Source of the DNA: a virus
DNA: 29,048 bases
Virus record (IMG/VR): IMGVR_UViG_3300042923_000278
Location: 1-29,048 of that record
Reading direction: 5' to 3' (one strand)
Below are positions 12,002 through 29,048 of this stretch, in pieces (the stretch's first letter is position 1; each line of letters begins with the position of its first letter). The translations under genes and the position numbers were made by a program. A model generated the notes under the pieces. That model was not told the DNA's origin. It searched no databases and saw nothing but the letters and a program-made list of their open reading frames with translations.

Positions 12002-12026
12002 GGCACCTACCTAGAAAGAGGCTGAA

Positions 12027-12887: not shown

Positions 12888-12905
12888 GTCATCTAGGAGG
12901 TCATC

Positions 12906-14711: not shown

Positions 14712-14726
14712 CCCATCCCAGTCGTA

Positions 14727-14753: not shown

Positions 14754-14772
14754 GCCAGTTAAGGGGGTCCGC

Positions 14773-14976: not shown

Positions 14977-14977
14977 C

Positions 14978-15460: not shown

Positions 15461-15466
15461 CAAGCC

Positions 15467-15504
15467 CCGGGCTGGGTGGTTCCTCCACCGTCCATCCAGC
15501 CCGG
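15467..15504 (+). terminator. Long hairpin between tail tube and chaperone genes
   Basis: CCGGGCTGGGTGG pairs with CCATCCAGCCCGG (13 pairs, one G-T) with a 12-base loop that itself contains CCTCCACC, able to pair with a downstream GGTGG. No T-run follows. Such a hairpin after a highly expressed tube gene would stabilise upstream mRNA or reduce read-through into the chaperones. Confidence 0.5.
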
Positions 15505-15534
15505 TTCCCTCCACGGTGGAGACAGGTGGAGAAC

Positions 15535-15951
15535 ATGAGCATTCAGGATCTGATTGAGAAGGCTCGAGCGGAGGCGGCTACACCCGTCACTGACTCGGCG
15601 AACGTGGTTGTCGGCGGCGAAATGGTGGCGCTGACGTTCACGAAACTGCTAGGCGCGGAATGGTCGGCTATCACCGCGATCAACCCGCCGCGCAAGGGTG
15701 CGCAGCTCGACTCGAATCTGGGCTACAACCTTGACGCTGCGGCTGGGGCGTACCCGGTCGACAAGCTCACGGTCGCCGGCGAGCACCCCACCGCAGACGA
15801 GTGGGTCGAACTGTACGGGCTGCTGGATTCCCCGTGGCGGGAGACCATCGCCCTGAAACTGTGGGGACTGAATCAGCAGGGGCCTGCGGCGAGGATTCTC
15901 GCACTGGGAAAAGCTTCCTCGGGGGCCGGTTCCAGGAAGAAGCGGAACTAG
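15535..15951 (+). CDS. Tail assembly chaperone, short form
   Basis: The ATG at 15535 has GGTGGAG upstream; an in-frame GTG at 15526 is less likely. The 138-residue product starts MSIQDLIEKARAEA, has a beta-rich core and ends in a short tail GAGSRKKRN. It is the G-type chaperone that coats the tape measure during tail assembly. It holds a slip site at 15906-15912 through which a fraction of ribosomes continue in the -1 frame. Position between tube and tape measure is diagnostic. Confidence 0.85.
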   Translation: MSIQDLIEKARAEAATPVTDSANVVVGGEMVALTFTKLLGAEWSAITAINPPRKGAQLDSNLGYNLDAAAGAYPVDKLTVAGEHPTADEWVELYGLLDSPWRETIALKLWGLNQQGPAARILALGKASSGAGSRKKRN

Positions 15952-16310
15952 CCCTCGAGATAGGTGTCTCACCACGGCGGCTTTCTGGTTGGGAACCGGC
16001 TGAGGTGACGACGTTCGAGTATGACGGTGACCGTCTGGTGAGCTCGGTGACGATCCGTGAGGCGGAGTTCTCGCCGTTGGATGTTGCCGCGCTGCTGGAG
16101 GCGCGTCGTCGTGCGCGGGTTCGGCGCGGGCCGCACGGGTACACGATCGCGGAGGCGACCGACCCGGATAACCAGTTCAACTTTGTGGCTAAGCCGCGCC
16201 AGGACTGGGCTATGCGGGCGCTGAACCAGGCGCAAGAGGCGTACAGGGCAGAGAACCCTAAGGCGACCGATCTGCATTCGTTGGTGTGGGACGTGCAGAA
16301 ACGATCGTGA
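15535..16310 (+). CDS. Tail assembly chaperone, frameshifted long form
   Basis: Translation from 15535 through codon AAA at 15910-15912, then a -1 slip, continues at 15912 with SFLGGRFQEEAELALEIG and ends at 16310, giving about 258 residues. The second frame has no good start of its own and translates sensibly only from the slip site: EVTTFEYDGDRL, AALLEARRRARVRRGPH, AMRALNQAQEAYRAENP. This is the GT-type fusion that recruits tube subunits to the tape measure. The -1 geometry agrees exactly between the two frames. Confidence 0.85.
15906..15912 (+). promoter_or_regulatory. -1 ribosomal slippery site GGGAAAA
   Basis: In the chaperone frame the codons read CTG GGA AAA, so the heptamer G GGA AAA fits the X XXY YYZ rule. 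After slipping, both tRNAs re-pair with GGG and AAA. The -1 frame is open for another 133 codons. This is one of the common slip sequences in siphovirus chaperone genes. Confidence 0.88.
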
Positions 16311-16458
16311 ACACCCCGCAGATCAGCAGCACCCATGAGGGCGCGTAGAGCCAGAGGGTTCGCAGCAGGTCCAGTCCGAGGGTCATGTAGACCGTCACGC
16401 CGGCGAGCAGCACAGCAGCCGCTATTAGCACTGCCCCGGTGATGGTCTTCGCCCTCAT
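16258..16458 (-). CDS. Reverse-strand small membrane protein, two TM segments
   Basis: Read on the minus strand from the ATG at 16458, the 66-residue product has a short basic start (MRAKTIT) and two hydrophobic segments, about residues 7-28 (GAVLIAAAVLLAGVTVYM) and 32-53 (TLWLYAPSWVLLICGVF), then a polar tail. It occupies the 199-base gap between the chaperones and the tape measure and overlaps the end of the chaperone gene by 53 bases on the other strand. No strong ribosome site is seen. Coding is supported by the clean two-helix pattern only. Function unknown. Confidence 0.5.
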   Translation of the reverse strand: MRAKTITGAVLIAAAVLLAGVTVYMTLGLDLLRTLWLYAPSWVLLICGVFTIVSARPTPTNADRSP

Positions 16459-16509
16459 GCAACCGAACAGTACCGGACTGCCGGTCGAGATACATCCCTT
16501 GGAGGGTGC

Positions 16510-19263
16510 ATGACTAGGCAGGTCAAGGCAGAACTGGCCATCGGCTACCAGCAGTACGTCGAGGGGATGAAGAAGGCTGCTGCTGCTACCCGCGAGACGG
16601 CCACTGAGGCGCAGAATCTCGCGGATCAGCGCGAGGCGTTCACTCTCCTTGGTCGCACGGCGCTTGCGTCGGGTGCGGTCATCGCGGCGGGGCTGACTGT
16701 CGCGGTCGCGAAGTTTGCCGAGTTCGACCAGGCGATGTCGAATGTTGCGGCGACTGGTGAGGATGCCCGCGACAACATCGAGGGGCTGCGGGACGCGGCT
16801 CTTGAGGCCGGCGCTACGACGGTGTTCTCTGCCACGGAGTCGGCCAACGCGATCGAGGAACTGGCGAAGGCGGGGCTGGACGCTTCGGAGATCCTGGGCG
16901 GCGCCCTGAAGGGGTCGCTGGACCTCGCCGCTGCCGCTGGTATCGGTGTGGCGGAGGCGGCGGGTATTGCCGCGACCACGCTTCAGCAGTTCAAGCTTGA
17001 CGGTAGTGACGCGACGCATGTCGCTGACCTTCTGGCTGCCGGTGCGGGCAAGGCCATGGGTGACGTGGGCGACATGTCGCAGGCGCTTGCGCAGGCGGGG
17101 CTCGTCTCTGACCAGTTCGGTGTGTCCGTTGAGGAGACGGTCGGGACTCTGTCGGCTTTTGCGTCGGCTGGTCTGCTGGGTTCGGACGCTGGTACGTCGT
17201 TCCGGACGATGCTTCTGCGTCTCGCGAACCCCACTGGTGAGGTCCGCGACCTCATGAAGGAGATCGGGTTCGAGGCTTACAACGCTCAGGGCCAGTTCAT
17301 CGGGCTCTCGGGTCTGGCGGGCGAGCTCGAGACGTCCCTCGCAGGGATGACGGATGAGCAGAAGCAGACGACTCTGGCGATGATCTTCGGTCAGGACGCG
17401 ATCCGTGGTGCAACAGTCCTTTACGAAGAGGGCGCGTCAGGCATCAACGACTGGACTGACAAGGTCGACGACGCCGGCTACGCGGCTGAGACCGCGGCGA
17501 CCAAACTGGACAACTTCAAGGGCGACTGGGAGGCGCTGTCTGGTGCCGTTGACACTGCCCTGATCTCGATGGGTGAGGCCGCGGATGGACCGCTGCGGTT
17601 CTTCACGCAGGGTCTCACGACGCTGGTCGACAAGTTCAACGAGATCCCTGCGGCGGGGCAGCAGGCCGTGTTCTGGATTGGCGCCGTGGCGGGCGCGACG
17701 GGCCTCGCTTACGGGGCATATCTGCTGCTGATCCCGAAGGTAGCTGAGTTCAACGCGGCTCTCGAACTGATGAGCCCGCGCACCCAGTCTGTGGCCAAGG
17801 GTCTCGGCATGATCGCGAAGATTGGTGGCGGCGCTATTGCAGGCCTGGCAGTCGGCGTGGTTGCGCTGGACGCTCTCACCCAGGCGCTGAAGGACATCGG
17901 TCCCGAGGCTGAGGAAGTCGCGAACAAGGTAGTGTCAGCGCGCACTGCGGTGGATCTTCTGGCGTCCTCGGCTGGCAAGTTCGGCGGCTCTGGGATCGAG
18001 CTTGCCACTAAGCAGCTCGAAGAGTTGGGCGCCGTGCTGGATCGGGGCGGCGCTACCGGAGCCGGTGACATCATCGGCAATTCGACGATCTCGAACCTGC
18101 AACTGCTCGGTACCGAGCTGGGGAAGATCGCTGAGTCGGACCTGCCCGCGGCGCAGCGTCAGTTCCGCCTGCTTGCTGAGGCGGGGAATCTGACCGAGAA
18201 GCAGCAGTTGCTTCTTTTGGATCAGATGCCGGCGTACAAATCGGCTCTGACTGAGCAGGCGACCGCTTCGGGTGTTGCCGCAACTGGTCAGGAACTTCTT
18301 GACCTGGCGTTCGGCAAGTCCGAGGAGTCCACCAAGGACAACGAGGATGCGCTGCGCGCGCTGGCCGGGCAAGCGTCGATTACCGGCGAGGGAATCGACG
18401 ACCTGGCCAACCAGATCCGCAACTTCGGGTCCGCAACACTGAGCGTCCGTGACGCGCAGCGTCAGTTCGAGCAGGCTACCGACGATGTGTCGGATGCGGT
18501 TCAGCGTCAGATCGAGGAGTTCATCAAGCCGCAGGAGGATGCCTACCTCGCGGCGAACGGCAGCCTTGACGGGTTTGTGGCTTCGATGGAGGGGTTCATC
18601 CCGACGTTGGACACGACGACCCAGTTGGGGCGTGACGCTGAGGCGTCGCTGGATGACCTCGCTGAGTCGACTCTCGAACTGTCGGCCGCAACGATCGAGC
18701 AGACGGGTTCGCAGGAGGACGCCAACGCGATCATCGCGGACGGCCGTCAACGTCTGATCGACATGTTGGCTCAGTTCGGTATCACGGGGCAGGCTGCGGA
18801 GGACTATGCGGACGACCTGGGCTTGATCCCGGCCAACGTGGAGACTGCGGTTGAACTTACTGGTGTCGAGACGGCCGAGAAGGAGCTCGCGTGGCTTACG
18901 CGTCGGCGTGAGGCGCAGATCGCGGTGTCTACGTCGGAGCCTCGGCTGCGTGATGGTGCCGCGTCTGGTGGTCGTGCCTATGGTGGCGAGATTTCCGGCC
19001 CGGGTGGGCCTACTGATGACTCTGCTGGCCTGTATCGGCTGTCAGACGGTGAGCATGTTCTGACCGCCGCGGATGTGGACGCGATGGGTGGCCAGCATGC
19101 GGTGTACGCGTTCCGTGACGCTCTGCACTCTGGTGGCGGGGGTGGGGCGGGGCCGGCTGTCTATCTCACACAGAACATTTACCCGACGCCAGGCATGAGC
19201 GAGGAACACATCGGCCGTATCGCGGCTGAGCGGACTGCTTTCGCGGCAAGGGGGAACGGATGA
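16510..19263 (+). CDS. Tape measure protein (TMP1)
   Basis: The ATG at 16510 has GGAGGG upstream. The 917-residue product has a helical N-terminus, hydrophobic segments near residues 50-70 and 378-402 (AVFWIGAVAGATGLAYGAY), and the TP901-type core between them (KFAEFDQAMSNVAATGED, FRTMLLRLANPTGEV, LAMIFGQDAIRG). A long Ala/Glu/Gln-rich helical region follows. The C-terminus is Gly-rich (GGRAYGGEISGPGGPTDD) with a Tyr/His end. It sets tail length and helps DNA entry. At about 0.15 nm per residue it would give a tail near 135 nm (inference). It is homologous to TMP2. Confidence 0.95.
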   Translation: MTRQVKAELAIGYQQYVEGMKKAAAATRETATEAQNLADQREAFTLLGRTALASGAVIAAGLTVAVAKFAEFDQAMSNVAATGEDARDNIEGLRDAALEAGATTVFSATESANAIEELAKAGLDASEILGGALKGSLDLAAAAGIGVAEAAGIAATTLQQFKLDGSDATHVADLLAAGAGKAMGDVGDMSQALAQAGLVSDQFGVSVEETVGTLSAFASAGLLGSDAGTSFRTMLLRLANPTGEVRDLMKEIGFEAYNAQGQFIGLSGLAGELETSLAGMTDEQKQTTLAMIFGQDAIRGATVLYEEGASGINDWTDKVDDAGYAAETAATKLDNFKGDWEALSGAVDTALISMGEAADGPLRFFTQGLTTLVDKFNEIPAAGQQAVFWIGAVAGATGLAYGAYLLLIPKVAEFNAALELMSPRTQSVAKGLGMIAKIGGGAIAGLAVGVVALDALTQALKDIGPEAEEVANKVVSARTAVDLLASSAGKFGGSGIELATKQLEELGAVLDRGGATGAGDIIGNSTISNLQLLGTELGKIAESDLPAAQRQFRLLAEAGNLTEKQQLLLLDQMPAYKSALTEQATASGVAATGQELLDLAFGKSEESTKDNEDALRALAGQASITGEGIDDLANQIRNFGSATLSVRDAQRQFEQATDDVSDAVQRQIEEFIKPQEDAYLAANGSLDGFVASMEGFIPTLDTTTQLGRDAEASLDDLAESTLELSAATIEQTGSQEDANAIIADGRQRLIDMLAQFGITGQAAEDYADDLGLIPANVETAVELTGVETAEKELAWLTRRREAQIAVSTSEPRLRDGAASGGRAYGGEISGPGGPTDDSAGLYRLSDGEHVLTAADVDAMGGQHAVYAFRDALHSGGGGGAGPAVYLTQNIYPTPGMSEEHIGRIAAERTAFAARGNG
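18564..18690 (+). repeat. 127-bp exact direct repeat, copy 1 (inside TMP1)
   Basis: These 127 bases are identical, base for base, to 28922-29048 at the very end of the window; the preceding base differs (G here, C there). Both copies lie in the same reading frame of a tape measure gene. The offset is 10,358 bases. Identity stays high for another 116 bases upstream with only three differences in total. Confidence 0.97.
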
Positions 19264-19442
19264 ACGCGACTCTTGGCGGGCTGACGTTCGTCGACCTCGA
19301 GGGCGCGCACGTTGCCGGCATCGTTGCCGTCACGTTCGCGCAGCTCTACATCGCCGAAGCGCTCAAGACCATCTCACAGGACACACTCCTGCGGGCGGTC
19401 GAGGCGCAGATTGTCACGCTGGGGGGCAAAGATGATGACTGA
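19260..19442 (+). CDS. Hypothetical 60-residue protein after tape measure
   Basis: The ATG at 19260 overlaps the tape measure stop (ATGA). The product has a Gly/Ala/Val-rich middle with AGIVAVTFAQLYIAEALKTI, amphipathic more than clearly transmembrane, and an acidic end. It overlaps the next gene by 11 bases. In ordinary siphoviruses a distal tail protein would stand here, but this is far too small. Function unknown. Confidence 0.6.
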   Translation: MNATLGGLTFVDLEGAHVAGIVAVTFAQLYIAEALKTISQDTLLRAVEAQIVTLGGKDDD

Positions 19443-19635
19443 GAAAGACCCGAAGGACATGACAGACGCCGAGTGGCTCGAGTGGTACAGGGATCAACCC
19501 AAGGGGCCGAAGCTCTCACGGGAAGAGTCGATCAAGTGGCTGGCCGCGCGCGGACGCATGCTCAATCCGACGGAGAAGGAACGCATCGTCGATCAGCTTC
19601 TGCTAAACCTACCGATCGACGACAAGGAGACTTGA
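19432..19635 (+). CDS. Hypothetical 67-residue acidic protein
   Basis: Two adjacent ATG codons (19432, 19435) follow a GGGGGG run. The product has MTDAEWLEWYRDQPKGP, an acidic Trp-rich helix, then SREESIKWLAARGRML and EKERIVDQLLLNLP. It is compact and helical, and its type is unknown. It is the last + gene before a convergent reverse-strand gene; a GGCCG/CGGCC mini-hairpin lies between them. Confidence 0.6.
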   Translation: MMTEKDPKDMTDAEWLEWYRDQPKGPKLSREESIKWLAARGRMLNPTEKERIVDQLLLNLPIDDKET

Positions 19636-19642
19636 GGCCGGG

Positions 19643-19888
19643 TTAGCGGCCACCACCCCAGTCCGCGATAGGTCCACCCCCGGGGCCATGCGCGGCCAGG
19701 TACGCCGTGTGGACGCGGTAACAAGCTTCGCGGAGAGTCGTGGACCATCCGATGACCTCACCGCGCCAGATCGCCTTATAGCGCGTGTCCGTGCCGTTCA
19801 TGACACGACGGATCTCGACGCTTCCGTACTCGCGGCCCTGCGGGTCGATCAGCTTCCAGACACCGGTTGGACTTTCAACCGCAGCCAT
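19643..19888 (-). CDS. Reverse-strand hypothetical protein, 81 residues
   Basis: The frame is open up to 20023 on the minus strand, but that extension would cover the zinc-ribbon gene on the + strand, so the ATG at 19888 is chosen. The product has beta-rich WKLIDPQGREYGSVEIRRV, then YKAIWRGEVIGWSTTLREA and the helix CYRVHTAYLAAHG, with a Gly-rich end. The middle looks like a small single-domain protein. No ribosome site is clear. The gene is divergent from 19955, across a 66-base gap holding a GGCCGG/CCGGCC repeat that may be shared operator DNA. Confidence 0.55.
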   Translation of the reverse strand: MAAVESPTGVWKLIDPQGREYGSVEIRRVMNGTDTRYKAIWRGEVIGWSTTLREACYRVHTAYLAAHGPGGGPIADWGGGR

Positions 19889-19954
19889 GATCGGGTGCCA
19901 CGTGTCCACAGGCCGGATCCTCCAATCCCCGGCCGAGTGACTACGGTAGCGGGC

Positions 19955-20086
19955 ATGCCCGACGTCATCGACGACAGCGCACAACCCCACTGCCCCAAGT
20001 GTGGCACCGTGCTCCGCGACCATCTAGGCGGCTACCAGTGCGCCGGCTGTGAGTTGTTCTACCTCGCGAACCAGGTTCAGCGGTGA
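19955..20086 (+). CDS. Zinc-ribbon microprotein, 43 residues
   Basis: The ATG at 19955 starts a protein with CPKCG and CAGCE (Cys 13, 16, 29, 32), a complete four-cysteine zinc ribbon in a minimal scaffold. Its TGA overlaps the GTG at 20083 of the HTH gene. It is too short for most gene callers, but the ribbon is well formed. It may modulate the neighbouring HTH protein or integrase; that is speculation. Confidence 0.65.
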   Translation: MPDVIDDSAQPHCPKCGTVLRDHLGGYQCAGCELFYLANQVQR

Positions 20087-20100
20087 CCGAGGAGCAGCGC

Positions 20101-20514
20101 ATGACCGGCCCTGTGCTGACTTCCAAAGCCGCCGCGGAGTATTGCGGTATGGCAGTGCAGACGCTCTACAACCTGATCTCGCAGGGTGCCGGCCCGAAGC
20201 ATTACAAGCATGGAACGCTCAGTGCGTTCTACGCCGCTGATCTCGATGAATGGAATCGAGCGCGACTTCAACCCATTGCGGCCGGGCTGGTCGCGGGTCA
20301 TGAGCGGACCGTCGACGTGACGGATCTGGCGAGCATCCTCGGCGTCTCAACGGACACCGTCTACAGGATGGTGCGGTCTGGCGACCTCCCAGGTTTCAAG
20401 CTTGGGGGCGTCTGGCGGTTCTTCCCGTCGACAGTGAAGGCTCATCTCGAGCGCCCGAAGGACGCATGGCAGCAGTCGACGCGCTCGAGAGCAAGGAAGC
20501 GCATCACCGATTGA
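20101..20514 (+). CDS. Double helix-turn-helix protein, candidate excisionase
   Basis: The start ATG 20101 has GAGGAG six bases upstream; GTG 20083 overlapping the zinc-ribbon stop is the alternative. The 137 residues contain two MerR/excisionase-type winged HTH units: LTSKAAAEYCGMAVQTLYNL with AADLDEWNRARL (about residues 6-56), and VDVTDLASILGVSTDTVYRM with FKLGGVWRFF (about 71-115). Single units are usual for Xis or BldC-like proteins. Its place just upstream of the integrase suggests a recombination directionality factor or an integrase regulator. Confidence 0.75.
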   Translation: MTGPVLTSKAAAEYCGMAVQTLYNLISQGAGPKHYKHGTLSAFYAADLDEWNRARLQPIAAGLVAGHERTVDVTDLASILGVSTDTVYRMVRSGDLPGFKLGGVWRFFPSTVKAHLERPKDAWQQSTRSRARKRITD

Positions 20515-20586
20515 GCGTGCTTCGCGATCAATGCGGTTAGCGTGAACGTCTTGCGGATGTCGGACGTCCGGAGTAACGTCTATCGC

Positions 20587-21960
20587 GTGACCACCGTTCT
20601 GTATACCCGCATCAGCCAGGACAAGACCGGCGCCGAAGCCGGCGTCGAGCGGCAGGCGAAAGAGTGCCGCGAGCTTGCCGAGCGCCGGAACCTCTCAGTG
20701 GTTCGCGAGTTCTCCGACAACGACATCTCGGCGTACAGCGGGAAGCGCCGACCCGGCTTCGAAAGCCTGCTCCAGGCGGTTCGCGATGGTGCTACTGACA
20801 CGATCCTGGTGTGGCACCCCGATCGGTTGTACAGGCGCTCGTCGGATCTCGAACTACTCATTGATCTCGTAGAGAAACAGCGAATCAAGATCGTCTCCGT
20901 CACGGCGGGCGACTTCGACCTGAACACGGCAACGGGTCGAGCTGTCGCGAGGACGCTCGTCGCGTGGTCTGGCTTCGAAGTTGAGCAGAAGGCCGACCGG
21001 CAAAAGTCTGCGTACCGTCAGATGGCAGAGAACGGTGGTTGGCACTTCTCTCACAGGCCATTCGGCTACGAGCGAGTCGACGGGAGCATCACTCAGGTAC
21101 CGGATGAGATCGCGGTCTTGCGAGACATCCTGACGCGGTACTACGTGAACCTCGAGTCGCGGCACTCGTTGATGAGGGACCTCAACGCCCGCGGGATCGT
21201 GACGCCGAAGGGAAAGCCGTGGGGCATCATTCAACTTCGCGACGTGCTCACGAATGACCGATACGGCGGTGTGGTGACCCACAACGACCAGATCATCGAC
21301 GTGAAGCCCTCATGGGAACCGGTCATCGACAAGGGCACCTGGCTCGGTTGGAGGTCGGCAGCGGCTAAGCGTAAGCGCAAGTCCACGTTCTCGGCGGCAC
21401 GGTACCTACTCACAGGTGTCGCACGCTGCGGAGTCTGCGGCGCCGCCTGTTTCGTGAAGCACCGCGCAGACAAGGGCCTGTCGTACTTCTGCTCTGAGTT
21501 GGCCTGCGTTCAGCGTTCGGTACCCGCCGTGGACTCGCTCGTGGAGAGCATCGTGATCGCACGACTTGGGATGCCTGACGCTCGCGAGGCCCTGCGTCCG
21601 CCTGCCGAGTCGACCACTCACCTCGCACAAGAGCTTGAGGCGCTGGTATCTCGCTCTGATTCGCTAGCAATCCTCGTGGCTGATGGCACATTGAGTGCGG
21701 ACGCCGCACGCGATGCTGCGAAGCCGCTCCGCACCCGGGCCGATGCCCTTCGTGCACAGATCGACGCCCAGCAGTCACGCATGACGATTCCGGACGACCT
21801 CCTGACGGGGGATGTCGCAGAGAAGTGGACGGCGCTATCGCTCACGAAGAAGCGTGCGGTGATTCGCGCGCTTATGCGAGTCTCGATCGACCGGCAGGCA
21901 AACCCCCGACGTTTCGACCCGTCAGCCGTCCGCATCGAGTGGTTGTCGGGAGACGGATAG
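20587..21960 (+). CDS. Large serine integrase
   Basis: The family N-terminus (VLYTRISQD, catalytic Ser at residue 10) places the start at GTG 20587; the frame is open to GTG 20542, and neither has a strong ribosome site. The 457-residue product has the resolvase domain (DNDISAYSGKRRPGF; WHPDRLYRRSSDLE; ARTLVAWSGFEVEQKADRQK), a recombinase domain (HFSHRPFGYERV, LNARGIVTPKG), a zinc ribbon (CGVCGAACF then CSELAC) and a C-terminal coiled-coil portion. It integrates DNA at attP/attB without host factors. It makes the element temperate or satellite-like. Confidence 0.95.
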   Translation: MTTVLYTRISQDKTGAEAGVERQAKECRELAERRNLSVVREFSDNDISAYSGKRRPGFESLLQAVRDGATDTILVWHPDRLYRRSSDLELLIDLVEKQRIKIVSVTAGDFDLNTATGRAVARTLVAWSGFEVEQKADRQKSAYRQMAENGGWHFSHRPFGYERVDGSITQVPDEIAVLRDILTRYYVNLESRHSLMRDLNARGIVTPKGKPWGIIQLRDVLTNDRYGGVVTHNDQIIDVKPSWEPVIDKGTWLGWRSAAAKRKRKSTFSAARYLLTGVARCGVCGAACFVKHRADKGLSYFCSELACVQRSVPAVDSLVESIVIARLGMPDAREALRPPAESTTHLAQELEALVSRSDSLAILVADGTLSADAARDAAKPLRTRADALRAQIDAQQSRMTIPDDLLTGDVAEKWTALSLTKKRAVIRALMRVSIDRQANPRRFDPSAVRIEWLSGDG

Positions 21961-21965
21961 AGACT

Positions 21966-22007
21966 TGTCGGCAACCGCCGACATGAGGTGTTAGGGACCT
22001 AGCACCT
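21966..22007. promoter_or_regulatory. Paired palindromes beside integrase gene
   Basis: Immediately after the integrase stop, TGTCGGC pairs with GCCGACA across AACC (21966-21983). A 22-base near-palindrome follows (21986-22007; arms AGGTGTTAGG and CCTAGCACCT, one mismatch) with central GA. The first may act as a terminator. The second could be an operator or part of attP, which in serine-integrase elements lies next to the gene. A GCCCCCG/CGAGGGC hairpin follows near 22019-22047. Confidence 0.4.
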
Positions 22008-22072
22008 GAAAAGAAACGCCCCCGCCGTGGGTGAACACGACGAGGGCCCAGACACCGAAGGAAAGAGCAACG

Positions 22073-22402
22073 ATGTCCAACATTCAGGATACCGAGACGA
22101 CTCAGCTTGATACACCGACCTGGGCGGTCGAGCGTGAGACGCAAGATGGCTTCCCCGGCGCCGTCATGCACCGCGGGGACAAGCTCACGTGGGGCAGATC
22201 CAGCGTCTGGCTAGAACGACTCGACGTGAACGACCAGGCTGGCGAGGTCGACGTAATGATCACCACACGCACGGCCGACTACCCCGACGAGGAGTTCTCG
22301 ATGCCGCTCACATCGGCCGGCGAGGTGTGGCCACTGCTGGGCAAGCTGCTCGAGAGCATCACCACCGTCGACCTTGCCCGCGAGTGGCAGAAGCGCAACT
22401 AA
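22073..22402 (+). CDS. Hypothetical 109-residue protein
   Basis: The ATG at 22073 has GGAAAG upstream. The acidic product has beta-like segments (TWAVERETQDGFPGAVMHRGDK split by loops; VDVMITTRTADYPDEEF) and a C-terminal helix (VWPLLGKLLESITTVDLAREW). It resembles small soluble actinophage proteins without a known role. A strong hairpin follows. Confidence 0.6.
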   Translation: MSNIQDTETTQLDTPTWAVERETQDGFPGAVMHRGDKLTWGRSSVWLERLDVNDQAGEVDVMITTRTADYPDEEFSMPLTSAGEVWPLLGKLLESITTVDLAREWQKRN

Positions 22403-22412
22403 CCATGAGAGT

Positions 22413-22442
22413 CAGGGTGCCGGGTTTCAGCTCGGCACCCTG
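22413..22442 (+). terminator. Perfect 10-bp hairpin after the 109-residue gene
   Basis: CAGGGTGCCG pairs perfectly with CGGCACCCTG across a ten-base loop. No T-run follows. It ends 31 bases before the next ATG, so it might be a terminator or a leader structure. Confidence 0.5.
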
Positions 22443-22473
22443 CCAATCGCCTACGTGGATGAGGGGAGACGAA

Positions 22474-22857
22474 ATGACGACACTGCGCATCATCTGCGAC
22501 GGCGGGCGGGAACGCTCGCACACGGCTGCCGAACTCGCAGTCATCGAGTGGATGCCCGCCGACTTCGAGTCCAAAGGCCTAGCGATATGGGACGCCAAGG
22601 AGCGCCCAAAGGGCCTGACAATGTCGGTGAAGGGCGACTCGACCAGCCGATCCGGGCGATCGGACGCGCCGAGGCGGGTGATCCACCGCACCAAGGCAAC
22701 CATCACCACGCGATCCAATGGCGGTCTGACCGTCCACGTGCCAGCGTGCCCCCGATGCGCCACGCCAGCTCGAGCCATCCGCGACACCAAGCTCCGGGAG
22801 TACCTGGAGGCAAACCGCGACACGCCGGACATCGCTCTAAACATGGCACTTATGTAG
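22474..22857 (+). CDS. Hypothetical 127-residue protein with CPRC motif
   Basis: The ATG at 22474 has GGGGAG upstream. The product starts TTLRIICDGGRERSHTAAEL, has a basic middle (STSRSGRSDAPRRVIHRTKA) and a CPRC motif near residue 93, with an earlier Cys at 9, that could form a partial zinc site. The C-terminus (LREYLEANRDTPDIALN) is helical. A family role is not known. The stop lies within the first copy of a 12-base repeat (22845-22856). Confidence 0.6.
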   Translation: MTTLRIICDGGRERSHTAAELAVIEWMPADFESKGLAIWDAKERPKGLTMSVKGDSTSRSGRSDAPRRVIHRTKATITTRSNGGLTVHVPACPRCATPARAIRDTKLREYLEANRDTPDIALNMALM

Positions 22858-22887
22858 TAGGCTTTCGAACAAAGGTACTTATGTACC
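22845..22887. promoter_or_regulatory. Direct repeat GGYACTTATGTA, possible operators
   Basis: GGCACTTATGTA (22845-22856) and GGTACTTATGTA (22874-22885) differ at one base and start 29 bases apart, close to three helical turns. The second also forms the dyad GGTAC-TTAT-GTACC (22874-22887). The spacing on one face of the helix suggests a dimeric regulator binding ahead of the next operon. A possible weak promoter (TTGTCG 22930-22935, TAATCG 22954-22959) lies downstream. Confidence 0.4.
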
Positions 22888-22902
22888 CACGGGTCGTGAG
22901 CC

Positions 22903-22979
22903 GTAGCCTCACGAGCATCCATCCCGAACTTGTCGACTGGTCAAGGTAGGGGCTAATCGTGATGCTCGAAAGAGGCTAC
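22903..22979 (+). repeat. Interrupted inverted repeat covering a ribosome site
   Basis: GTAGCCTC and GAGCATC (22903-22919) are complementary to GATGCTC and GAGGCTAC (22961-22979), giving a 15-pair arm interrupted by an internal loop, with a 41-base central loop. The right arm contains AGAGG, the ribosome site of the gene at 22981. Folding would hide it, so translational control is possible. Confidence 0.5.
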
Positions 22980-22980
22980 G

Positions 22981-23190
22981 ATGCCCTCACCGGTCCAGTC
23001 ACTCAAGGGACGATTCGCCGTCGCTCACCGCGACCACGCGCCTGACTCCCCCGAAGTCACCAACCTTCGCCGCGAACTCGCTGCCGCGAAGATCGCCCAG
23101 TACGTCGAGAAGATCGTCTCGACGGCTCCCCCGCTAACGCCTGATCAGCGCTCGCGTCTCGCAGCTCTGCTGACGAGCGAGGCCGCGTGA
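22981..23190 (+). CDS. Hypothetical 69-residue helical protein
   Basis: The ATG at 22981 has AGAGG six bases upstream, inside a predicted hairpin. The product has a basic start (MPSPVQSLKGRFAVAHRDH) and two helices (LRRELAAAKIAQYVEKIV and TPDQRSRLAALLTSEAA). The C-terminal pattern TPDQRxRLAALL is common in small actinobacterial mobile-element proteins that precede replication genes. The stop overlaps the next GTG. Confidence 0.65.
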   Translation: MPSPVQSLKGRFAVAHRDHAPDSPEVTNLRRELAAAKIAQYVEKIVSTAPPLTPDQRSRLAALLTSEAA

Positions 23191-23498
23191 ATGCCGAAAC
23201 CCCCGCAGTGCGGGGGCTCGAGAACTCTGCTGGCGGGCGGGTTCAATACCAGGATATCGTCACCCGCTTTCTCGCGGGTGAACTGCAACCGCACGAACTC
23301 CCGTGGCCGCTTCCCCTCCTCTGGAACGACGCATTTCATGTCGGTCAGGCCCGAGCGCAAGCCCGTATCGATCGCGCTGAGCGTGCCGCAGACGTCTACT
23401 ACGACATGTGGGTGAACGGGGATGAGGCGCGTAAGCGTCACACCGAACTCCTCAAGCACTTCGACGTGGTGCAGGCGCGCAAGGCGGTGAGCGCATGA
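23187..23498 (+). CDS. Hypothetical 103-residue protein before the ATPase
   Basis: The GTG at 23187 overlaps the upstream stop. The product has LPWPLPLLWNDAFHVGQ then a charged helix (ARIDRAERAADVYYDMWV). It is coupled to the DUF3631 gene by ATGA overlap, so it may partner the ATPase. No family recognised. Confidence 0.6.
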   Translation: MNAETPAVRGLENSAGGRVQYQDIVTRFLAGELQPHELPWPLPLLWNDAFHVGQARAQARIDRAERAADVYYDMWVNGDEARKRHTELLKHFDVVQARKAVSA

Positions 23499-24667
23499 GC
23501 ATCGCTGTTCCGTATGTTCCGGATGTTCCGTACCTGGAAGAGAAGGCGGGCGCCGCTGTTCTCGATCAGATCCGGTGTTACCTCGAGCGGTTCGTCGCTT
23601 ACCCCACCGAGTGGGCATCGGCGGCTCACGCGCTGTGGATTGCCCACGCTCACGCAGTAGATGTCTTCGAGAACACACCGCGGATCGGCTTCATCTCACC
23701 TGAGCCCGGGTCGGGGAAGTCGCGTGCGCTCGAGATGACGGAGGCCCTTGTGCCTCGTGCGGTGTTGAGCGTGAACGCCTCGACCGCGTACATCTTCCGC
23801 AAGATCAGTGACGAGGCCGGCCTGCCGACGCTGCTACTCGACGAGGTGGATGCGATCTTCGCCAACGGCAAGAGCGACGCCTCAGAAGACCTTCGCGGGT
23901 TGCTGAACAGTGGCTATCGTCGCGGCGCGACTGCCGGGCGGGCGGCGATTCGGGGGAAGGAGATCGTCACCGAAGAATGGCCGTCGTACTGTGCCGTCGC
24001 ACTTGCCGGGCTGAACCAACTGCCCGACACCCTCATGACGCGGTCCGTCGTGATCCGCATGAAACGGCGACGCCCCGACCAGCGGGTAGAGCCATACCGA
24101 CGTCGCGTGAACGGTATCGAATCCGACCAGTTGCATATCGTCCTGGCCGAGTGGGTTGACACTGTCCGCTCGGAGCTCGAGACGGCGTGGCCGCAACTGC
24201 CCGATGAAATTCAAGACCGCGATGCGGATGTCTGGGAGCCGCTTCTCGCCATGGCGGACGCAGCGGGCGGGGACTGGCCCGGGGTCGCACGAGAGGCTGC
24301 TCTCGCCGCGGTTGCTGAGTCCAAGTCCAAGCCCTCATCGCTGGGCGTGCAGTTGCTTGCTGACATTCGGAAGCTGTTCTCCGACGTTGACCGGATGAGC
24401 ACGACGGAGATTCTCGACCGACTCCACGACATGGACACCGCCCCATGGTCGTCGGTGCGGGGTGAACCCATCGACGCGAGGTTCGTGGCCCGGATGCTCG
24501 GCAAGTACGAGATCGAGCCGACGAAGCTGCGTATCGGGACGCTAACAGTCCGCGGGTATCACCGGTCGTCGTTCGTCGATGCCTGGGAGCGCTACTGCCC
24601 CTCCTCCCCTGTTCCCCAGGAAGCGGAACATCCGGAACATCCGGAACAGGACGAGGAGCCGTGGTGA
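23495..24667 (+). CDS. DUF3631-type ATPase, probable replication helicase/primase partner
   Basis: The ATG at 23495 overlaps the upstream stop. The 390-residue protein has Walker A SPEPGSGKS (68-76) and Walker B LLLDEVDA (D116, E117), followed by SYCAVALAGLNQLPDTLMTRSVVIRMKRR, where the Arg residues fit an AAA-type sensor/arginine finger. The C-terminal half has a winged-helix-like section (MSTTEILDRLHDMD, FVARMLGKYEIEPTKLR). DUF3631 proteins accompany primases in phages, plasmids and satellites. The first and last codons carry a shared repeat sequence in opposite orientation. Confidence 0.85.
   Translation: MSIAVPYVPDVPYLEEKAGAAVLDQIRCYLERFVAYPTEWASAAHALWIAHAHAVDVFENTPRIGFISPEPGSGKSRALEMTEALVPRAVLSVNASTAYIFRKISDEAGLPTLLLDEVDAIFANGKSDASEDLRGLLNSGYRRGATAGRAAIRGKEIVTEEWPSYCAVALAGLNQLPDTLMTRSVVIRMKRRRPDQRVEPYRRRVNGIESDQLHIVLAEWVDTVRSELETAWPQLPDEIQDRDADVWEPLLAMADAAGGDWPGVAREAALAAVAESKSKPSSLGVQLLADIRKLFSDVDRMSTTEILDRLHDMDTAPWSSVRGEPIDARFVARMLGKYEIEPTKLRIGTLTVRGYHRSSFVDAWERYCPSSPVPQEAEHPEHPEQDEEPW
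23507..23530. repeat. Inverted repeat left copy at ATPase gene start
   Basis: This 24-base stretch is built of GTTCCGKAT-type units and encodes the VPYVPDVPY start of the ATPase. Its reverse complement occurs at 24624-24647 with one mismatch (23 of 24 identical). Confidence 0.9.
24624..24647. repeat. Inverted repeat right copy at ATPase gene end
   Basis: CGGAACATC units encode the EHPEHPEQ end of the ATPase. The stretch is the reverse complement of 23507-23530 except one base, so the coding region is bracketed by a 24-base inverted repeat about 1.1 kb apart. Confidence 0.9.
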
Positions 24668-24837
24668 CCGCGTTCCGGGTGTGGCTCGAGACCTGTAAGG
24701 GCTGCACCCCCTGGACCCGTGTCGTCAGTCACCCGACGACGAACGAACCGATAGTCCAGGCCCTCCACGAGGACGAATGTCATGTCTGGCCGAAGCAGCA
24801 GCGGTCTGACGGTCAGGAGGTTGACCGTGCGCTCTGA
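24664..24837 (+). CDS. Hypothetical 57-residue protein
   Basis: The GTG at 24664 overlaps the ATPase stop. The product has FRVWLETCKGCTPWTRVV with a CxxC, a later CHVW, and an acidic end. A Cys/His site for a metal is possible. The end of the gene overlaps the WhiB start by 11 bases and contains its AGGAGG site. Confidence 0.6.
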   Translation: MTAFRVWLETCKGCTPWTRVVSHPTTNEPIVQALHEDECHVWPKQQRSDGQEVDRAL

Positions 24838-25078
24838 CAAGGGAGAAGCCGAGTACGCCGTACTGGTCGAAGCGATGGAGACCGTTCGGCCCGCCTGCCG
24901 CGACTACGAACTGTTCACGGCAGACCAAACCGACGCCGCACAGCGCGAGCTCGCCCAACGCCTCTGCGCATCGTGCCCGCTGGTCGACGCATGCCGTGCG
25001 TATGCCGAAGCATCCAAACCCACTGTCGGCATCTGGGCCGGAATCCCCTACCCCCGACGCGGAAGGACAACACCGTGA
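24827..25078 (+). CDS. WhiB-family Fe-S transcriptional regulator
   Basis: The GTG at 24827 has a perfect AGGAGG six bases upstream; the frame is open earlier without such a site. The 83-residue product has the four WhiB cysteines (24, 47, 50, 56; C-x22-C-x2-C-x5-C), which would bind a 4Fe-4S cluster, and the GIWAGIPY turn (68-75) followed by a basic C-terminus (PRRGRTT). WhiB proteins bind the sigma factor and regulate actinobacterial genes; phage copies can repress host whiB or block superinfection (known for TM4 WhiB). It is strictly actinobacterial. Confidence 0.93.
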   Translation: MRSDKGEAEYAVLVEAMETVRPACRDYELFTADQTDAAQRELAQRLCASCPLVDACRAYAEASKPTVGIWAGIPYPRRGRTTP

Positions 25079-25152
25079 TGTCGATCGCCCGGTGGATGCA
25101 GTGGTGGCTCGACCGAATCTACGAATGGCACATCCGGAAGTGGGAACTATGA
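25078..25152 (+). CDS. Trp-rich 24-residue peptide
   Basis: The ATG at 25078 overlaps the WhiB stop (TGATG) and its stop overlaps the next ATG (ATGA). The 24-residue product has five Trp (6, 9, 10, 17, 22), with Arg, Lys, Asp and Glu spaced to make an amphipathic helix. The exact fit between genes supports translation. A membrane-surface helix is plausible. No family is known, and a purely coupling role cannot be excluded. Confidence 0.5.
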   Translation: MSIARWMQWWLDRIYEWHIRKWEL

Positions 25153-25298
25153 GCGAACAAGAGCGCATCGCCGCAATTCGACGCGGTACCCGCAAGACGG
25201 AACGGCGTGCGCGACGCTACGCAGCCCTCATCCGCAAAGCCATCGATGTACTCGACAACCTCGCCGAAGAACTCGAAACAGAACTGGAGAAGTCATGA
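25149..25298 (+). CDS. Coiled-coil 49-residue protein
   Basis: The ATG at 25149 overlaps the Trp-rich peptide stop, and the stop overlaps the next start (ATGA). The product is almost entirely one charged helix: a basic half (IAAIRRGTRKTERRARRYAA), then an acidic half (LDNLAEELETELEKS). It is likely a dimeric coiled coil. Function unknown. From here to 26391 the + strand is C- and A-rich and uses C-ending codons. Confidence 0.6.
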   Translation: MSEQERIAAIRRGTRKTERRARRYAALIRKAIDVLDNLAEELETELEKS

Positions 25299-25663
25299 AC
25301 GACAACGACCTTGAACGCCTCGCGTCATGGGTGGCCGATTACGACCGCAACACGAAGATGCTCGGGCGCATCGCAGAACTCAACAACCCCGCGCCAGCCG
25401 AAGAAACACCCGACTACCTGAAGACGCAGCTCACCCGTGAAGACATCCACGGCATGACACCCGAACAGATCGAAGCAGCACACGCAGCCGGCGACCTCGA
25501 CCAGATCCTCGGCCGCATCAACCCGGCAGACCGAGAACTCGTGCACCGCGCCACCAACGGCCAAACCATCACCCACGCCGAAGCGAAGCGACTCCACGAA
25601 ACGGGACACTCCGAGCTCGTCGCCAACCTCCCCGTTCACCTCATCACGAAGGACAACGCATGA
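25295..25663 (+). CDS. Protein with scaffold-type capsid-binding motif, 122 residues
   Basis: The ATG at 25295 overlaps the upstream stop. Residues about 46-75 read QLTREDIHGMTPEQIEAA then AAGDLDQILGR. This matches the last 30 residues of the scaffold (11396-12001) at 20 of 30 positions with the rest mostly conservative. In the scaffold this segment is terminal; here about 47 residues follow (NPADRELVHRATNGQTITH onward). The N-terminus is short and helical (DLERLASWVADYDRNTKM). Satellites such as SaPIs use scaffold mimics to alter capsid size. That role here is an inference from the motif. Confidence 0.6.
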   Translation: MNDNDLERLASWVADYDRNTKMLGRIAELNNPAPAEETPDYLKTQLTREDIHGMTPEQIEAAHAAGDLDQILGRINPADRELVHRATNGQTITHAEAKRLHETGHSELVANLPVHLITKDNA

Positions 25664-26391
25664 ACCTCACAAGCCTCACCTTCTTCTCCCGCTCCAGCAA
25701 GGTCAGCGAGCCCAGCGTCTCCGCGAACGTCAACCTCCTCCCCCGCGACGTGTTCAAGGGTGACAAGGAGACCCTCGCGCTCTACGACCAGTACATGAAC
25801 CTGCGAACCGCGATCGCCGACAACGATCGTGCGGCAGGACGGGCGAAGGTGCAGGCCGAAGAAGCGAAGACCGCATACGCCCGTGCCGTCCGCGAAGCAC
25901 TATCCAACGGCACCGACCCGTCCAAGGTGCAGAGTGACGTCGCACACTACGAAGCCACCGCCCAGGCACACGCAGACCTGTCCCGGCAGGCTCGCTCCGG
26001 CCTCGAACGAATCTCCCGCACGTTCGCTGAACGCATCGCCGCTGTCGCACCCGTCGTCATCCCCCGCAGCGAGGAACGCCTCACCAACACGGCAGACACC
26101 ATGCGCCACGCGATCGCAGCACTCACCGAAGCATGGCGGGACTACTCAGCCGCATGGTCCGAACGCCGCATCCTCGGAGACATCAACCTCAACGGTGGAG
26201 CACTCGGCGCCTACGACCCAGCAGGCACCTTCCCCCCAAGCGTGCGAGCAGCCCTCGACACACTCACCAACCACCTCGCTGACCTCGACGTACTCAAGGC
26301 AGACGAACAGCACGTCCGTGAGTGGAGAGCTACGAACGCACAGGCTGACGCGTACAACCGACGACCCGCTGTGAATGCTCCCGCACTCTGA
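25660..26391 (+). CDS. Hypothetical 243-residue helical protein
   Basis: The ATG at 25660 overlaps the upstream stop. After a short start (NVNLLPRDVFKGDKETL) the product is mostly coiled coil: AGRAKVQAEEAKTAYARAV, VAHYEATAQAHADLSRQA, LERISRTFAERIAAV, and a helical C-terminal part with LDTLTNHLADLDVLKADEQ. No catalytic motif is visible. The position directly after the scaffold-motif gene and before tail genes suggests a structural or assembly partner, but this is a guess. Confidence 0.6.
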   Translation: MNLTSLTFFSRSSKVSEPSVSANVNLLPRDVFKGDKETLALYDQYMNLRTAIADNDRAAGRAKVQAEEAKTAYARAVREALSNGTDPSKVQSDVAHYEATAQAHADLSRQARSGLERISRTFAERIAAVAPVVIPRSEERLTNTADTMRHAIAALTEAWRDYSAAWSERRILGDINLNGGALGAYDPAGTFPPSVRAALDTLTNHLADLDVLKADEQHVREWRATNAQADAYNRRPAVNAPAL

Positions 26392-26399
26392 CCTCAACC

Positions 26400-26496
26400 G
26401 GGGTGGGTTCAACCAACCCACCCCCCGTGCGGGGTGCCTCAACTCGAGCCTCCGTCAGGCGACCGCCGGGGAGGGCTCTAAAACCCGCGGCGGGTT
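26400..26496 (+). terminator. Two hairpins in gap before zinc-ribbon gene
   Basis: GGGGTGGGTT pairs with AACCCACCCC across five bases (26400-26424). Downstream, AACCCGC pairs with GCGGGTT around a single G (26482-26496), followed by AAAAGTTT. Both sit in the 132-base gap where base composition flips from C-rich to G/T-rich. They probably end the upstream operon. Confidence 0.55.
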
Positions 26497-26523
26497 CAAA
26501 AGTTTGGGAGAGGGGCAGTTCTG

Positions 26524-26871
26524 ATGCATGAGCCGTCACGTTCCAGGTGGGACATGTGGAGTCGTCACACGGACGACCCCCGGGGGTTCTTCTCGTGGCG
26601 CCTGCCGGCCGGTGCCGGTGCAGACGTGTTATCTGCGGGCGAGATCGACCGGTTGAAGGCGCTCCCGAATGAAGCGCTCATCGACCTTCTGGACCGGGTC
26701 GACGTCGCGGTGAAGGAACTGACGTCGCTGAAACAGCAGCTTGCGTCGCGGTGGGTGATTGAGCGGGTCTGCCCATCGTGCGCGGGCGCGGTGCACGGGC
26801 GCTCGGACAAGCGGTACTGCTCGCGTGCATGTCAGCAGCGGGCCTACATGGCACGGAAGAAGGAGAACTGA
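26524..26871 (+). CDS. Zinc-ribbon protein, 115 residues, upstream of second tape measure
   Basis: The ATG at 26524 has GAGAGGGG upstream. The protein has an N-terminal Trp-rich segment (SRWDMWSRHTDDPRGFFSW), a helical middle (IDRLKALPNEALIDLLDRV) and a C-terminal zinc ribbon CPSC then YCSRACQQRAYMARKK (Cys 83, 86, 99, 103). The CSRACQQRAYxxRKK end is common in actinobacterial small DNA-binding proteins. It sits where a siphovirus would have tail chaperones, and none is present here. Confidence 0.7.
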   Translation: MHEPSRSRWDMWSRHTDDPRGFFSWRLPAGAGADVLSAGEIDRLKALPNEALIDLLDRVDVAVKELTSLKQQLASRWVIERVCPSCAGAVHGRSDKRYCSRACQQRAYMARKKEN

Positions 26872-26873
26872 AT

Positions 26874-29048
26874 ATGACTAGGCAGGTCAAAGCTGAACTG
26901 GCTATCGGGTACCAGCAGTACGTCGATGGGATGAAGAAGGCCGCTGCGGCGACCCGGGAGACGGCTACTGAGGCTCAGAAGCTTGCGGAGCAGCGGGAGG
27001 CGTTCACGCTCCTGGGTCGTGGCATCGCTACCGCCGGCGGTCTTGCAGTCGTGGGCTTGGGTGTGGCTGTGGCGAAGTTTGCGGAGTTCGACCAAGCGAT
27101 GTCGAATGTTTCGGCGACTGGTGAGGATGCTCGGGACAACATTGAGGCGCTGCGTGATGCGGCGCTCGAGGCCGGCGCTACCACGGTGTTCTCTGCCACG
27201 GAGTCGGCCAACGCGATTGAGGAGCTGGCGAAGGCTGGCCTTGACGCGTCGGAGATCCTTGGCGGTGCACTGACGGGGTCTCTGGACCTTGCTGCGGCTG
27301 CTGGTATCGGTGTGGCGGAGGCGGCGGCGATTGCTGCGACCACCCTCCAGCAATTCAGCCTTGACGGTAGTGACGCCACGCATGTGGCTGACCTTCTGGC
27401 CGCGGGTGCGGGTAAGGCCATGGGTAACGTGGGCGACATCTCGCAGGCGCTTGGTCAGGCGGGTCTGGTTGCGGATCAGTTCGGCGTCTCAGTTGAGGAG
27501 ACGGTGGGTTCTCTGTCGGCGTTCGCGTCAGCTGGACTGCACGGTTCCGACGCTGGTACGTCATTCCGGACGATGCTTCTCCGGCTCGCCAACCCCACGG
27601 GCGAGGTGCGCGATCTCATGAAGGAGATCGGGTTCGAGGCGTACAACACTCAGGGCCAGTTCATTGGTCTGTCAGGTCTGGCGGGCGAGCTCGAGACGTC
27701 CCTTGAGGGGATGACGGACGAGCAGAAGCAGACCACTCTGGCGATGATCTTCGGTCAGGACGCCATTCGCGGCGCGACGGTTCTCTACGAAGAGGGCGCG
27801 GCCGGTATTGAGGACTGGACGAACAAGGTCGACCATGCGGGGTATGCGGCTGAGACTGCGGCGACGAAGCTGGACAACTTCAAGGGTGACTGGGAGGCGC
27901 TGTCTGGTGCCGTCGACACCGCCCTCATCTCGATGGGCGAGGCGGCGGATGGACCCCTCCGGTTCTTCACGCAGGGTCTCACGGATCTAGTCGACAAGTT
28001 CAACGAGATGCCTGCCGCGGGTCAGCAGGCCGTGTTCTGGATCGGTGCCGTTGCGGCAGCGGGGGCAACCGCGCTCGGGTCGTATCTGCTGCTGGTGCCC
28101 AAGGTTGCTGAGTTCAACGCTGCGCTGGATGTGCTGGGGCCTTCCGCTCAGCGTGCCGCCCGCGGCGTGGGGGCGCTGTCGCGCGTCGGGGCGCTTGGCG
28201 TCACGATTGGAGCCGCAGCAATCGGAGTCGACTGGCTCGCACAGGAGATCTCGCAGAAGCTCCTCCCGTCCGTGGATCAGGTCGATAACAAGATGCGATC
28301 GGCTAAGTCCGGCGTGGAGTTGTTTGGCGCCGCGCTCTACAAGGAGGGCATCACCAACACCCAGCAGGCGGGAACTCTTCTCGAGGATCTGGGAAAGAAC
28401 CTCGACGCCGTCGCGGACAGTGATTTCTGGCACCCGGCGGAGCTTTCGGGGACTGCGGTAACCGTCATCAAGTCGATAGCCGAAACGGCCAAGGCAGATC
28501 TGCCCGGCGCCATCGCTCAGTTCCGCCAGCTTGCCGAGGACGGGAACCTGACAGAGAAGCAGCTTCGCACGATGATCAAGACCGTCCCGGAGTTGCAAGA
28601 CGCGTTGCTCGGTTACGCGGACACCAGTAAGGGTGCGGCGGACGCGCAGGACCTCCTGAACATCATCATGGGCGATTCGGAGGAGACCACCGAGGACAAC
28701 ACGGACGCTCTGAGGGCGTTGGCGGGGCAGGCATCTATCACGGGCGAGGGCATCGATGCGCTGGCTGACCAGATCCGTAACTTCGGTTCGGCGACCCTGA
28801 GTGTTCGTGACGCGCAGCGTCAGTTCGAGCAGGCTACCGACGATGTGTCGGATGCGGTTCAGCGTCAGATCGAGGAGTTCATCAAGCCGCAGGAGGATGC
28901 CTACCTGGCTGCGAACGGCACCCTTGACGGGTTTGTGGCTTCGATGGAGGGGTTCATCCCGACGTTGGACACGACGACCCAGTTGGGGCGTGACGCTGAG
29001 GCGTCGCTGGATGACCTCGCTGAGTCGACTCTCGAACTGTCGGCCGCA
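26874..29048 (+). CDS. Second tape measure protein (TMP2), 3' truncated by window end
   Basis: The ATG at 26874 has AAGGAG upstream, and the frame is open through the last base (725 codons). The protein starts MTRQVKAELAIGYQQYV as in TMP1 and follows it closely through the TP901-type core and the hydrophobic segment VFWIGAVAAAGATALGSYLL. It diverges at about residues 408-600 and returns to near identity at residues 640-725. The last 127 bases are identical to TMP1. If joined to 18691 onward, it makes a complete 915-residue protein in frame. It lacks upstream chaperone genes. Confidence 0.9.
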   Translation, partial: MTRQVKAELAIGYQQYVDGMKKAAAATRETATEAQKLAEQREAFTLLGRGIATAGGLAVVGLGVAVAKFAEFDQAMSNVSATGEDARDNIEALRDAALEAGATTVFSATESANAIEELAKAGLDASEILGGALTGSLDLAAAAGIGVAEAAAIAATTLQQFSLDGSDATHVADLLAAGAGKAMGNVGDISQALGQAGLVADQFGVSVEETVGSLSAFASAGLHGSDAGTSFRTMLLRLANPTGEVRDLMKEIGFEAYNTQGQFIGLSGLAGELETSLEGMTDEQKQTTLAMIFGQDAIRGATVLYEEGAAGIEDWTNKVDHAGYAAETAATKLDNFKGDWEALSGAVDTALISMGEAADGPLRFFTQGLTDLVDKFNEMPAAGQQAVFWIGAVAAAGATALGSYLLLVPKVAEFNAALDVLGPSAQRAARGVGALSRVGALGVTIGAAAIGVDWLAQEISQKLLPSVDQVDNKMRSAKSGVELFGAALYKEGITNTQQAGTLLEDLGKNLDAVADSDFWHPAELSGTAVTVIKSIAETAKADLPGAIAQFRQLAEDGNLTEKQLRTMIKTVPELQDALLGYADTSKGAADAQDLLNIIMGDSEETTEDNTDALRALAGQASITGEGIDALADQIRNFGSATLSVRDAQRQFEQATDDVSDAVQRQIEEFIKPQEDAYLAANGTLDGFVASMEGFIPTLDTTTQLGRDAEASLDDLAESTLELSAA
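28922..29048 (+). repeat. 127-bp exact direct repeat, copy 2 (window end)
   Basis: Identical to 18564-18690 and ending exactly at the last base. From 28806 onward (243 bases) there are only three differences to TMP1 (28907, 28910, 28921). The exact length matches a common assembly k-mer, so this may be an assembly-graph junction. Confidence 0.97.

Follow-up and report, generated by a model that had tools for sequence, protein, structure and literature searches.

A candidate scaffold mimic encoded in a family of ~10-kb phage satellites that carry their own tape measure gene

Introduction

Why should a viral protein encoded well away from the capsid gene carry the end of a head scaffold? The question arises in the window (the whole stretch of DNA that was analysed, 29,048 nucleotides, positions 1 to 29,048 of the IMG/VR record IMGVR_UViG_3300042923_000278) at the open reading frame 25295-25663 of the plus strand. 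Its 122-aa product, here called the mimic, had been proposed in a preliminary description to imitate, on behalf of a satellite, the C-terminus of the scaffold encoded at 11396-12001.

Results

The motif and its distribution

The comparison involves the following features.

25295-25663 (+): putative scaffold-mimic protein, 122 aa, with a predicted helix (residues 3-30), a linker, a scaffold-like hairpin (44-74) and a C-terminal helical hairpin (77-111)
25427-25516 (+): scaffold C-terminus motif in the mimic, codons of residues 45-74, sequence QLTREDIHGMTPEQIEAAHAAGDLDQILGR
11396-12001 (+): helper scaffold, 201 aa, with the imitated part in its last 30 residues (phrog_4708, head scaffolding, E 1.4e-20)
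11909-11998 (+): motif at the C-terminus of the helper scaffold, residues 172-201, the match to the mimic
12027-12887 (+): helper major capsid protein, HK97-type, presumed binding target (phrog_267, E 4e-70; PDB 8e16, E 4e-29)

Residues 45-74 of the mimic are identical to the last 30 residues of the window scaffold at 20 positions, Q45 included (19 of 29 for residues 46-74 against 173-201). The count given in the preliminary description was therefore right, and its placement at residues 46-75 is corrected to 45-74. The best ungapped BLOSUM62 score of the two proteins is 106, far above that of 1,000 shuffles (mean 30, maximum 47). When the mimic was compared with the window by tblastn, it matched itself and the scaffold C-terminus only (61%, residues 44-76, E 2.8e-9), and outside the motif no other similarity between the mimic and the scaffold is detectable. 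The motif lies at the extreme C-terminus in the scaffold, whereas in the mimic it is internal, with ~44 aa before and 48 aa after it.

A motif profile was built from scaffold C-termini only, leaving out the target protein, and searched against 1,938 called proteins. At E<=1e-5 it returned scaffolds and the mimic family (E 2.5e-14 for the mimic) and nothing else; the next matches were a weak one to a Microcystis phage ORF (1.6e-4) and one to a Methanosarcinales virus gene located 5' of the capsid gene (0.0025). With the motif as tblastn query against ~50,700 phage records, the matches were weak, and nearly all were annotated as scaffolds or lay between portal and capsid genes. Relatives in IMG/VR that do not belong to the satellites are scaffold genes immediately before a capsid gene, and motif-bearing scaffolds lie directly 5' of the major capsid gene wherever examined. 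In an Aeribacillus phage a recognisable form ends the product of the gene that precedes the capsid gene, and a faint form occupies the same place in the Methanosarcinales (methanogen) virus. By its distribution the motif is thus a capsid-assembly motif and not a general module, and the possibility raised beforehand of a widespread non-capsid module falls away: the motif is essentially confined to scaffold C-termini beside capsid genes and to the mimic family.

The mimic motif agrees best with the scaffolds of helpers that occur in the same samples, at 20-21 of 30 positions (21 for L075, L082 and L085), while scaffolds from elsewhere share at most 17 of 30. In L110, which diverges most among the satellites, no part of the mimic is kept as well as the motif (18 of 31 residues identical to the window mimic, against 12 of 43 before the motif and 12 of 48 after it). 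A second, degenerate copy of the motif, considered for the C-terminal hairpin (residues 92-112), is not detected by the scaffold profile.

The mimic gene has dN/dS of ~0.2-0.4 relative to six close homologues, and is thus a real gene on which purifying selection acts. The AlphaFold2 model of the protein is weak, with a mean pLDDT of 63 and values of ~60 or below in the motif hairpin, while the C-terminal hairpin is separately folded at pLDDT 81-87. Foldseek found no similar solved structure for this model, and family searches recognised no enzymatic or DNA-binding domain; a match to Pfam Beta-lactamase2 (E 0.007) is below cut-off or due to chance.

Structure of the record

The gene for the mimic lies in the second of two elements, which meet inside a tape measure gene.

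16510-18690 (+): helper tape measure gene, 5' part (family searches, repeat comparison)
18564-18690 (+): 127-bp repeat, first copy, join of helper contig and satellite circle (exact identity to 28922-29048)
18691-19263 (+): satellite tape measure gene, 3' part, in frame with 26874-29048 across the 127-bp repeat
26874-29048 (+): satellite tape measure gene, 5' part (the 3' part being 18691-19263 after circle closure; 915 aa)
28922-29048 (+): 127-bp repeat, second copy, record end (exact identity to 18564-18690)

The window is a composite of two parts: positions 1-18690 are a contig of the helper phage and positions 18691-29048 a closed satellite of 10,358 bp. Up to the repeat it reads as an ordinary phage, with terminase, portal, scaffold, capsid, connectors, tail tube and tape measure; after the join the minor tail genes are absent with which related phage contigs continue behind the tape measure gene. 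When the ends are closed at the 127-bp repeat, a circle of 10,358 bp results, whose single tape measure gene is intact and encodes 915 aa.

The join is most likely an assembly product, since an exact 127-bp overlap recurs in several records and is typical of assembler k-mer overlap; the gene order across the join should consequently not be read as one genome. The alternative that phage and satellite truly recombined, fusing within the tape measure gene, concerns the structure of the window and is compatible with the explanation of the mimic preferred below. Recombination there is plausible, given that the two tape measure genes of the window are 98-100% identical just before the join (18448-18690 against 28806-29048; elsewhere 71-90%), and in L040, too, the tape measure gene is where the contig passes into a different sequence. 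We nevertheless regard a true recombinant as quite unlikely, as the repeat has a length of exactly 127 bp, which L038, L041 and L110 also show in their end repeats, and the window, unlike the phage contigs, has no minor tail genes behind its tape measure gene. The near-identical stretch itself suggests a recent exchange of the tape measure gene between helper and satellite. A tandem array of different satellites in a chromosome, which L039 and L042 had brought to mind, was dropped: the junctions in L039 are exact repeats of 127-146 bp, and L042 shares its units with L039.

The satellite units

Further satellite genes of the window outside the module of the mimic include these.

20149-20514 (+): excisionase/HTH protein (phrog_66, E 7.7e-14)
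20542-21960 (+): large serine integrase (PF00239, PF07508; phrog_95, E 2.8e-91)
23495-24667 (+): DUF3631 ATPase, presumed satellite replication protein (PF12307, E 9e-58)
24782-25078 (+): WhiB-like regulator, start codon uncertain (PF02467, E 1.9e-10; frame kept in sister satellites)

After the join the genes follow in the order excisionase, serine integrase, small genes, DUF3631 ATPase, WhiB-like regulator, mimic, partner, zinc-finger protein and the start of the tape measure gene. Seven satellite units are available, that of the window and six more of 9.8-11.0 kb in five contigs from two metagenomes. Three close through 127-bp direct end repeats (L038, 10,239 bp; L041, 10,977 bp; L110, 10,351 bp), L039 holds two units (9,872 and 9,816 bp), and L040 contains a repeated unit of 10,178 bp. 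The units other than the window's own come from the metagenome sets 3300042923 and 3300042934, where they occur alongside many candidate-helper contigs. L040 (3300042934_000247) is a 17.5-kb contig that crosses its satellite once and exits inside the tape measure gene into helper-like sequence.

The integrase is either of the serine type, as in the window, L041 and L110, or of the tyrosine type; the replication gene is DUF3631 (in the window, and in L110 by similarity) or AAA_25. When 20 helper morphogenesis proteins of both capsid types were compared with the seven units by tblastn, counterparts emerged only for the tape measure protein and for the 30-residue end of the scaffold; in the seven closed units this search found none for the large terminase, the portal, the capsid, the connectors or the tail tube. 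Closed units of ~10 kb with an integrase and a replication gene and no head genes mark the carrier as a phage satellite, that is, a mobile element with an incomplete set of virion genes that needs a helper. The preliminary idea of a scaffold mimic in a satellite is borne out to this extent, by a closed ~10.4-kb satellite in the 3' part of the window and by sister units without head genes; it had missed the join of two elements, the fact that the satellite itself encodes a tape measure protein, and the small terminase found in related units.

Scanning of bacterial genome contigs with the partner and replication proteins gave no relative that would mark an integrated or host copy, and the satellite integrase as query gave no match among viral contigs. 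An 88-aa gene of the minus strand behind the tape measure gene (19643-19909 in the window) is called in five of the seven units at 85-91% identity and is found at 68% in one phage contig (L015); it is a putative candidate for helper interference. The WhiB-like regulator, immediately upstream of the mimic module, is conserved in the satellites and may control late expression. A further contig, L101 (3300025764_000108), encodes an integrase, a replication protein 51% identical to those of the satellites, and a capsid and protease gene, and looks like a capsid-forming satellite of another kind.

The mimic module

25149-25298 (+): basic helical ORF, 49 aa, immediately 5' of the mimic (kept in every satellite, L110 included)
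25660-26391 (+): partner gene, 243 aa, long helices/coiled coil (overlaps the mimic stop codon; no known family)
26524-26871 (+): zinc-finger-like protein, 115 aa (occupies the slot of the small terminase in four sister satellites)

All units keep the order 49-aa ORF, mimic, partner, terminase or zinc finger, and tape measure. The partner is always adjacent to the mimic, directly 3'; its identity is 91-96% between close satellites and falls to 39% in L110. Family searches gave no known relatives of the partner protein; matches to Pfam Tom22 (E 0.02) and PADLOC ZorA (E 0.003) are below cut-off or marginal, of the coiled-coil or chance kind, and its structure model is poor (pLDDT 60). Between the partner and the tape measure gene, four of the seven units (in L038, L039 and L040) carry a small terminase; the two that were scanned match phrog_1496 (E 2e-15 and 5e-20), and the other two are close homologues by sequence. 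The window unit, L041 and L110 have the zinc-finger protein in this slot, which is perhaps an alternative packaging factor.

Tape measure genes and helpers

The satellite tape measure proteins (853-920 aa) are of about helper length and differ between satellites. That of S3 is ~90% identical to those of a group of helpers; wherever the contig of a member includes the head region, its scaffold bears the motif. That of the satellite type S2b is 82% identical to those of helpers with another scaffold type; the nearest helper genes (L111, L112) adjoin a different capsid module, whose scaffold is without the motif. As the two are nearest to different helper groups, the satellites seem to take the tape measure gene from different helpers. 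A supposed scar of capture, a satellite ORF derived from the first minor tail gene of a helper, was discarded, because the matching stretch of the L040 contig lies beyond its satellite part.

Five contigs (L018, L019, L022, L111 and L112) have nearly the same tail genes with a different capsid and a different scaffold, which lacks the motif. Head modules are exchanged among phages, possibly to escape the mimic. Since helpers of the other capsid type lack the motif, the mimic should work on only part of the helpers. Helper-type records reach ~39-42 kb, so that a genome of 10 kb would suit a much smaller head.

Discussion

We consider the mimic to be, with fair probability, a competitor of the scaffold that redirects capsid size in the manner of CpmB, and its carriers to form a new satellite family that supplies its own tape measure. 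This reading is favoured by the specific motif match, the fact that the carrier is a satellite, the co-conservation of the partner, the preservation of the motif in L110 and the sample-matched helper scaffolds. The proposal that size is redirected rests on analogy with CpmB, which competes at the scaffold binding place: in the 80alpha system CpmB and the scaffold both bind the capsid protein by a C-terminal helix and hook that they have in common, and they compete for it; the N-terminal domain of CpmB dimerises (PMC5644958). From it we infer capsid-protein binding, competition, dimerisation and size change. In the proposed sequence of events, an integrative satellite of ~10.4 kb would encode the assembly-redirecting mimic, which would bind the helper major capsid protein through the copied scaffold C-terminal helix-turn-helix and compete with the genuine scaffold within the procapsid as it grows. 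The N-terminal helix, the partner (25660-26391) or both would hold the mimic together, and it would then impose a tighter shell curvature, giving small capsids that hold one satellite genome and not that of the helper. Against this reading stands the internal position of the motif in the mimic, as scaffolds and CpmB have theirs at the C-terminus. The weak structure model, for which Foldseek gave no solved counterpart, also counts against it, as do the motif-less scaffolds encoded beside the helper tape measure genes nearest to that of S2b and the scans of bacterial genomes, in which no integrated copy appeared.

The internal position would also suit a cargo tag, by which the motif brings the mimic, perhaps with the 243-aa partner, into the procapsid (for instance for DNA ejection or establishment) and leaves the size unaffected; the separately folded hairpin that follows the motif and the constant adjacency of the partner gene agree with it. 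We think this improbable, however, for a protein of 122 aa without a recognisable enzymatic or DNA-binding domain, and the closest precedents of the same layout act on size. There is a similarly small chance that the mimic inhibits assembly, blocking or misdirecting helper heads at the scaffold site with no ordered small heads, to the benefit of the host or the satellite. The same binding motif would serve for this, and satellite blockers of virion assembly are known (Rta of PLE, PMC12987554; the Tai systems, PMC11364771); but satellites without a capsid gene depend on helper heads, so that a pure poison would stop their own spread, and in four of them a packaging gene, the small terminase, is present. 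That the element is a defective phage or plasmid and the mimic a decaying scaffold remnant is very hard to credit, since, for all its phage-derived pieces (tape measure gene, scaffold C-terminus), the mimic is under purifying selection with its motif best kept in L110, and seven units repeat the same module within a narrow size range.

To return to size redirection, CpmB of SaPI1 (acting with CpmA, in Staphylococcus aureus) resembles the mimic in being a small helical satellite protein with a capsid-binding segment common with the helper scaffold C-terminus (predicted binding in our case), in its adjacent conserved partner gene and in the small terminase of the same module (here in four relatives). 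The segment homologous to the C-terminal end of the helper scaffold, on which CpmB-like mimicry depends, is present in the mimic. The motif itself is different (no RIIK helix-hook) and internal, with 48 aa behind it, the protein has 122 aa compared with 72, and the hosts of the present satellites are of a high-GC, actinophage-like type. No RIIK motif and no Pfam, PDB-sequence or fold match to CpmB were found, and the mimic is apparently not homologous to CpmB, no sequence homology being detected. Rcm of SaPIpT1028 (PMC12409344) is, like the mimic, a larger multi-helical protein similar in sequence to its cognate scaffold, and it switches capsid size, the role proposed for the mimic; its similarity is spread along the protein, whereas that of the mimic is a single 30-residue block of higher identity.

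Of the PICI features, an integrase and, in four units, TerS were observed; for replication the units have DUF3631 or AAA_25, and they also carry a tape measure gene. P4-like features (a Sid-type external scaffold, the P4 alpha primase) gave no family match among the satellite proteins scanned. MulchRoom/MiniFlayer and the cf-PICIs encode their own capsid, portal and terminase (PMC10690885). The former, satellites of Streptomyces phages, also parasitise actinobacterial phages, and some are integrative; unlike these and the cf-PICIs, the satellites described here encode neither capsid nor portal nor large terminase, with no counterpart by tblastn and no family match in the proteins scanned, and must take the helper head. 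In the open literature the actinobacterial phage satellites described are MulchRoom/MiniFlayer only, and the carriers of the mimic are best read as a new satellite family, of ~10-kb parasites of actinobacterial phages.

PLE11 of Vibrio cholerae has its own tape measure protein and forms chimeric tails; its authors knew of no other reported case and show putative ones (PMC12987554). The satellites described here likewise have their own tape measure, and the chimeric tails shown for PLE11 are predicted for them. PLE11 also encodes a tail chaperone and a baseplate hub, while the present satellites carry the tape measure only, at about helper length, and the PLE capsid remodeller TcaP is a protein different from the mimic. 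We see an even chance that the satellites reprogram both halves of the virion: the mimic and the partner would shrink the head, the small terminase or zinc finger would redirect packaging, and the full-length tape measure protein of the satellite, in place of the helper's, would yield chimeric tails, its gene being exchanged to match the tail type of the helper while the mimic stays constant.

For those who use virus catalogues, these contigs mean that the catalogues hold composite records, which pass from helper to satellite by way of a tape measure gene common to both. As natural satellites with their own tape measure gene, the present elements add to a feature that a 2026 paper called unreported before PLE11 (PMC12987554). 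Scaffold mimicry, known in staphylococcal satellites, would be extended to an unrelated motif with predicted capsid binding and to actinobacterial phages. This speaks for the view that the C-terminus of the scaffold is a target hard for helpers to alter.
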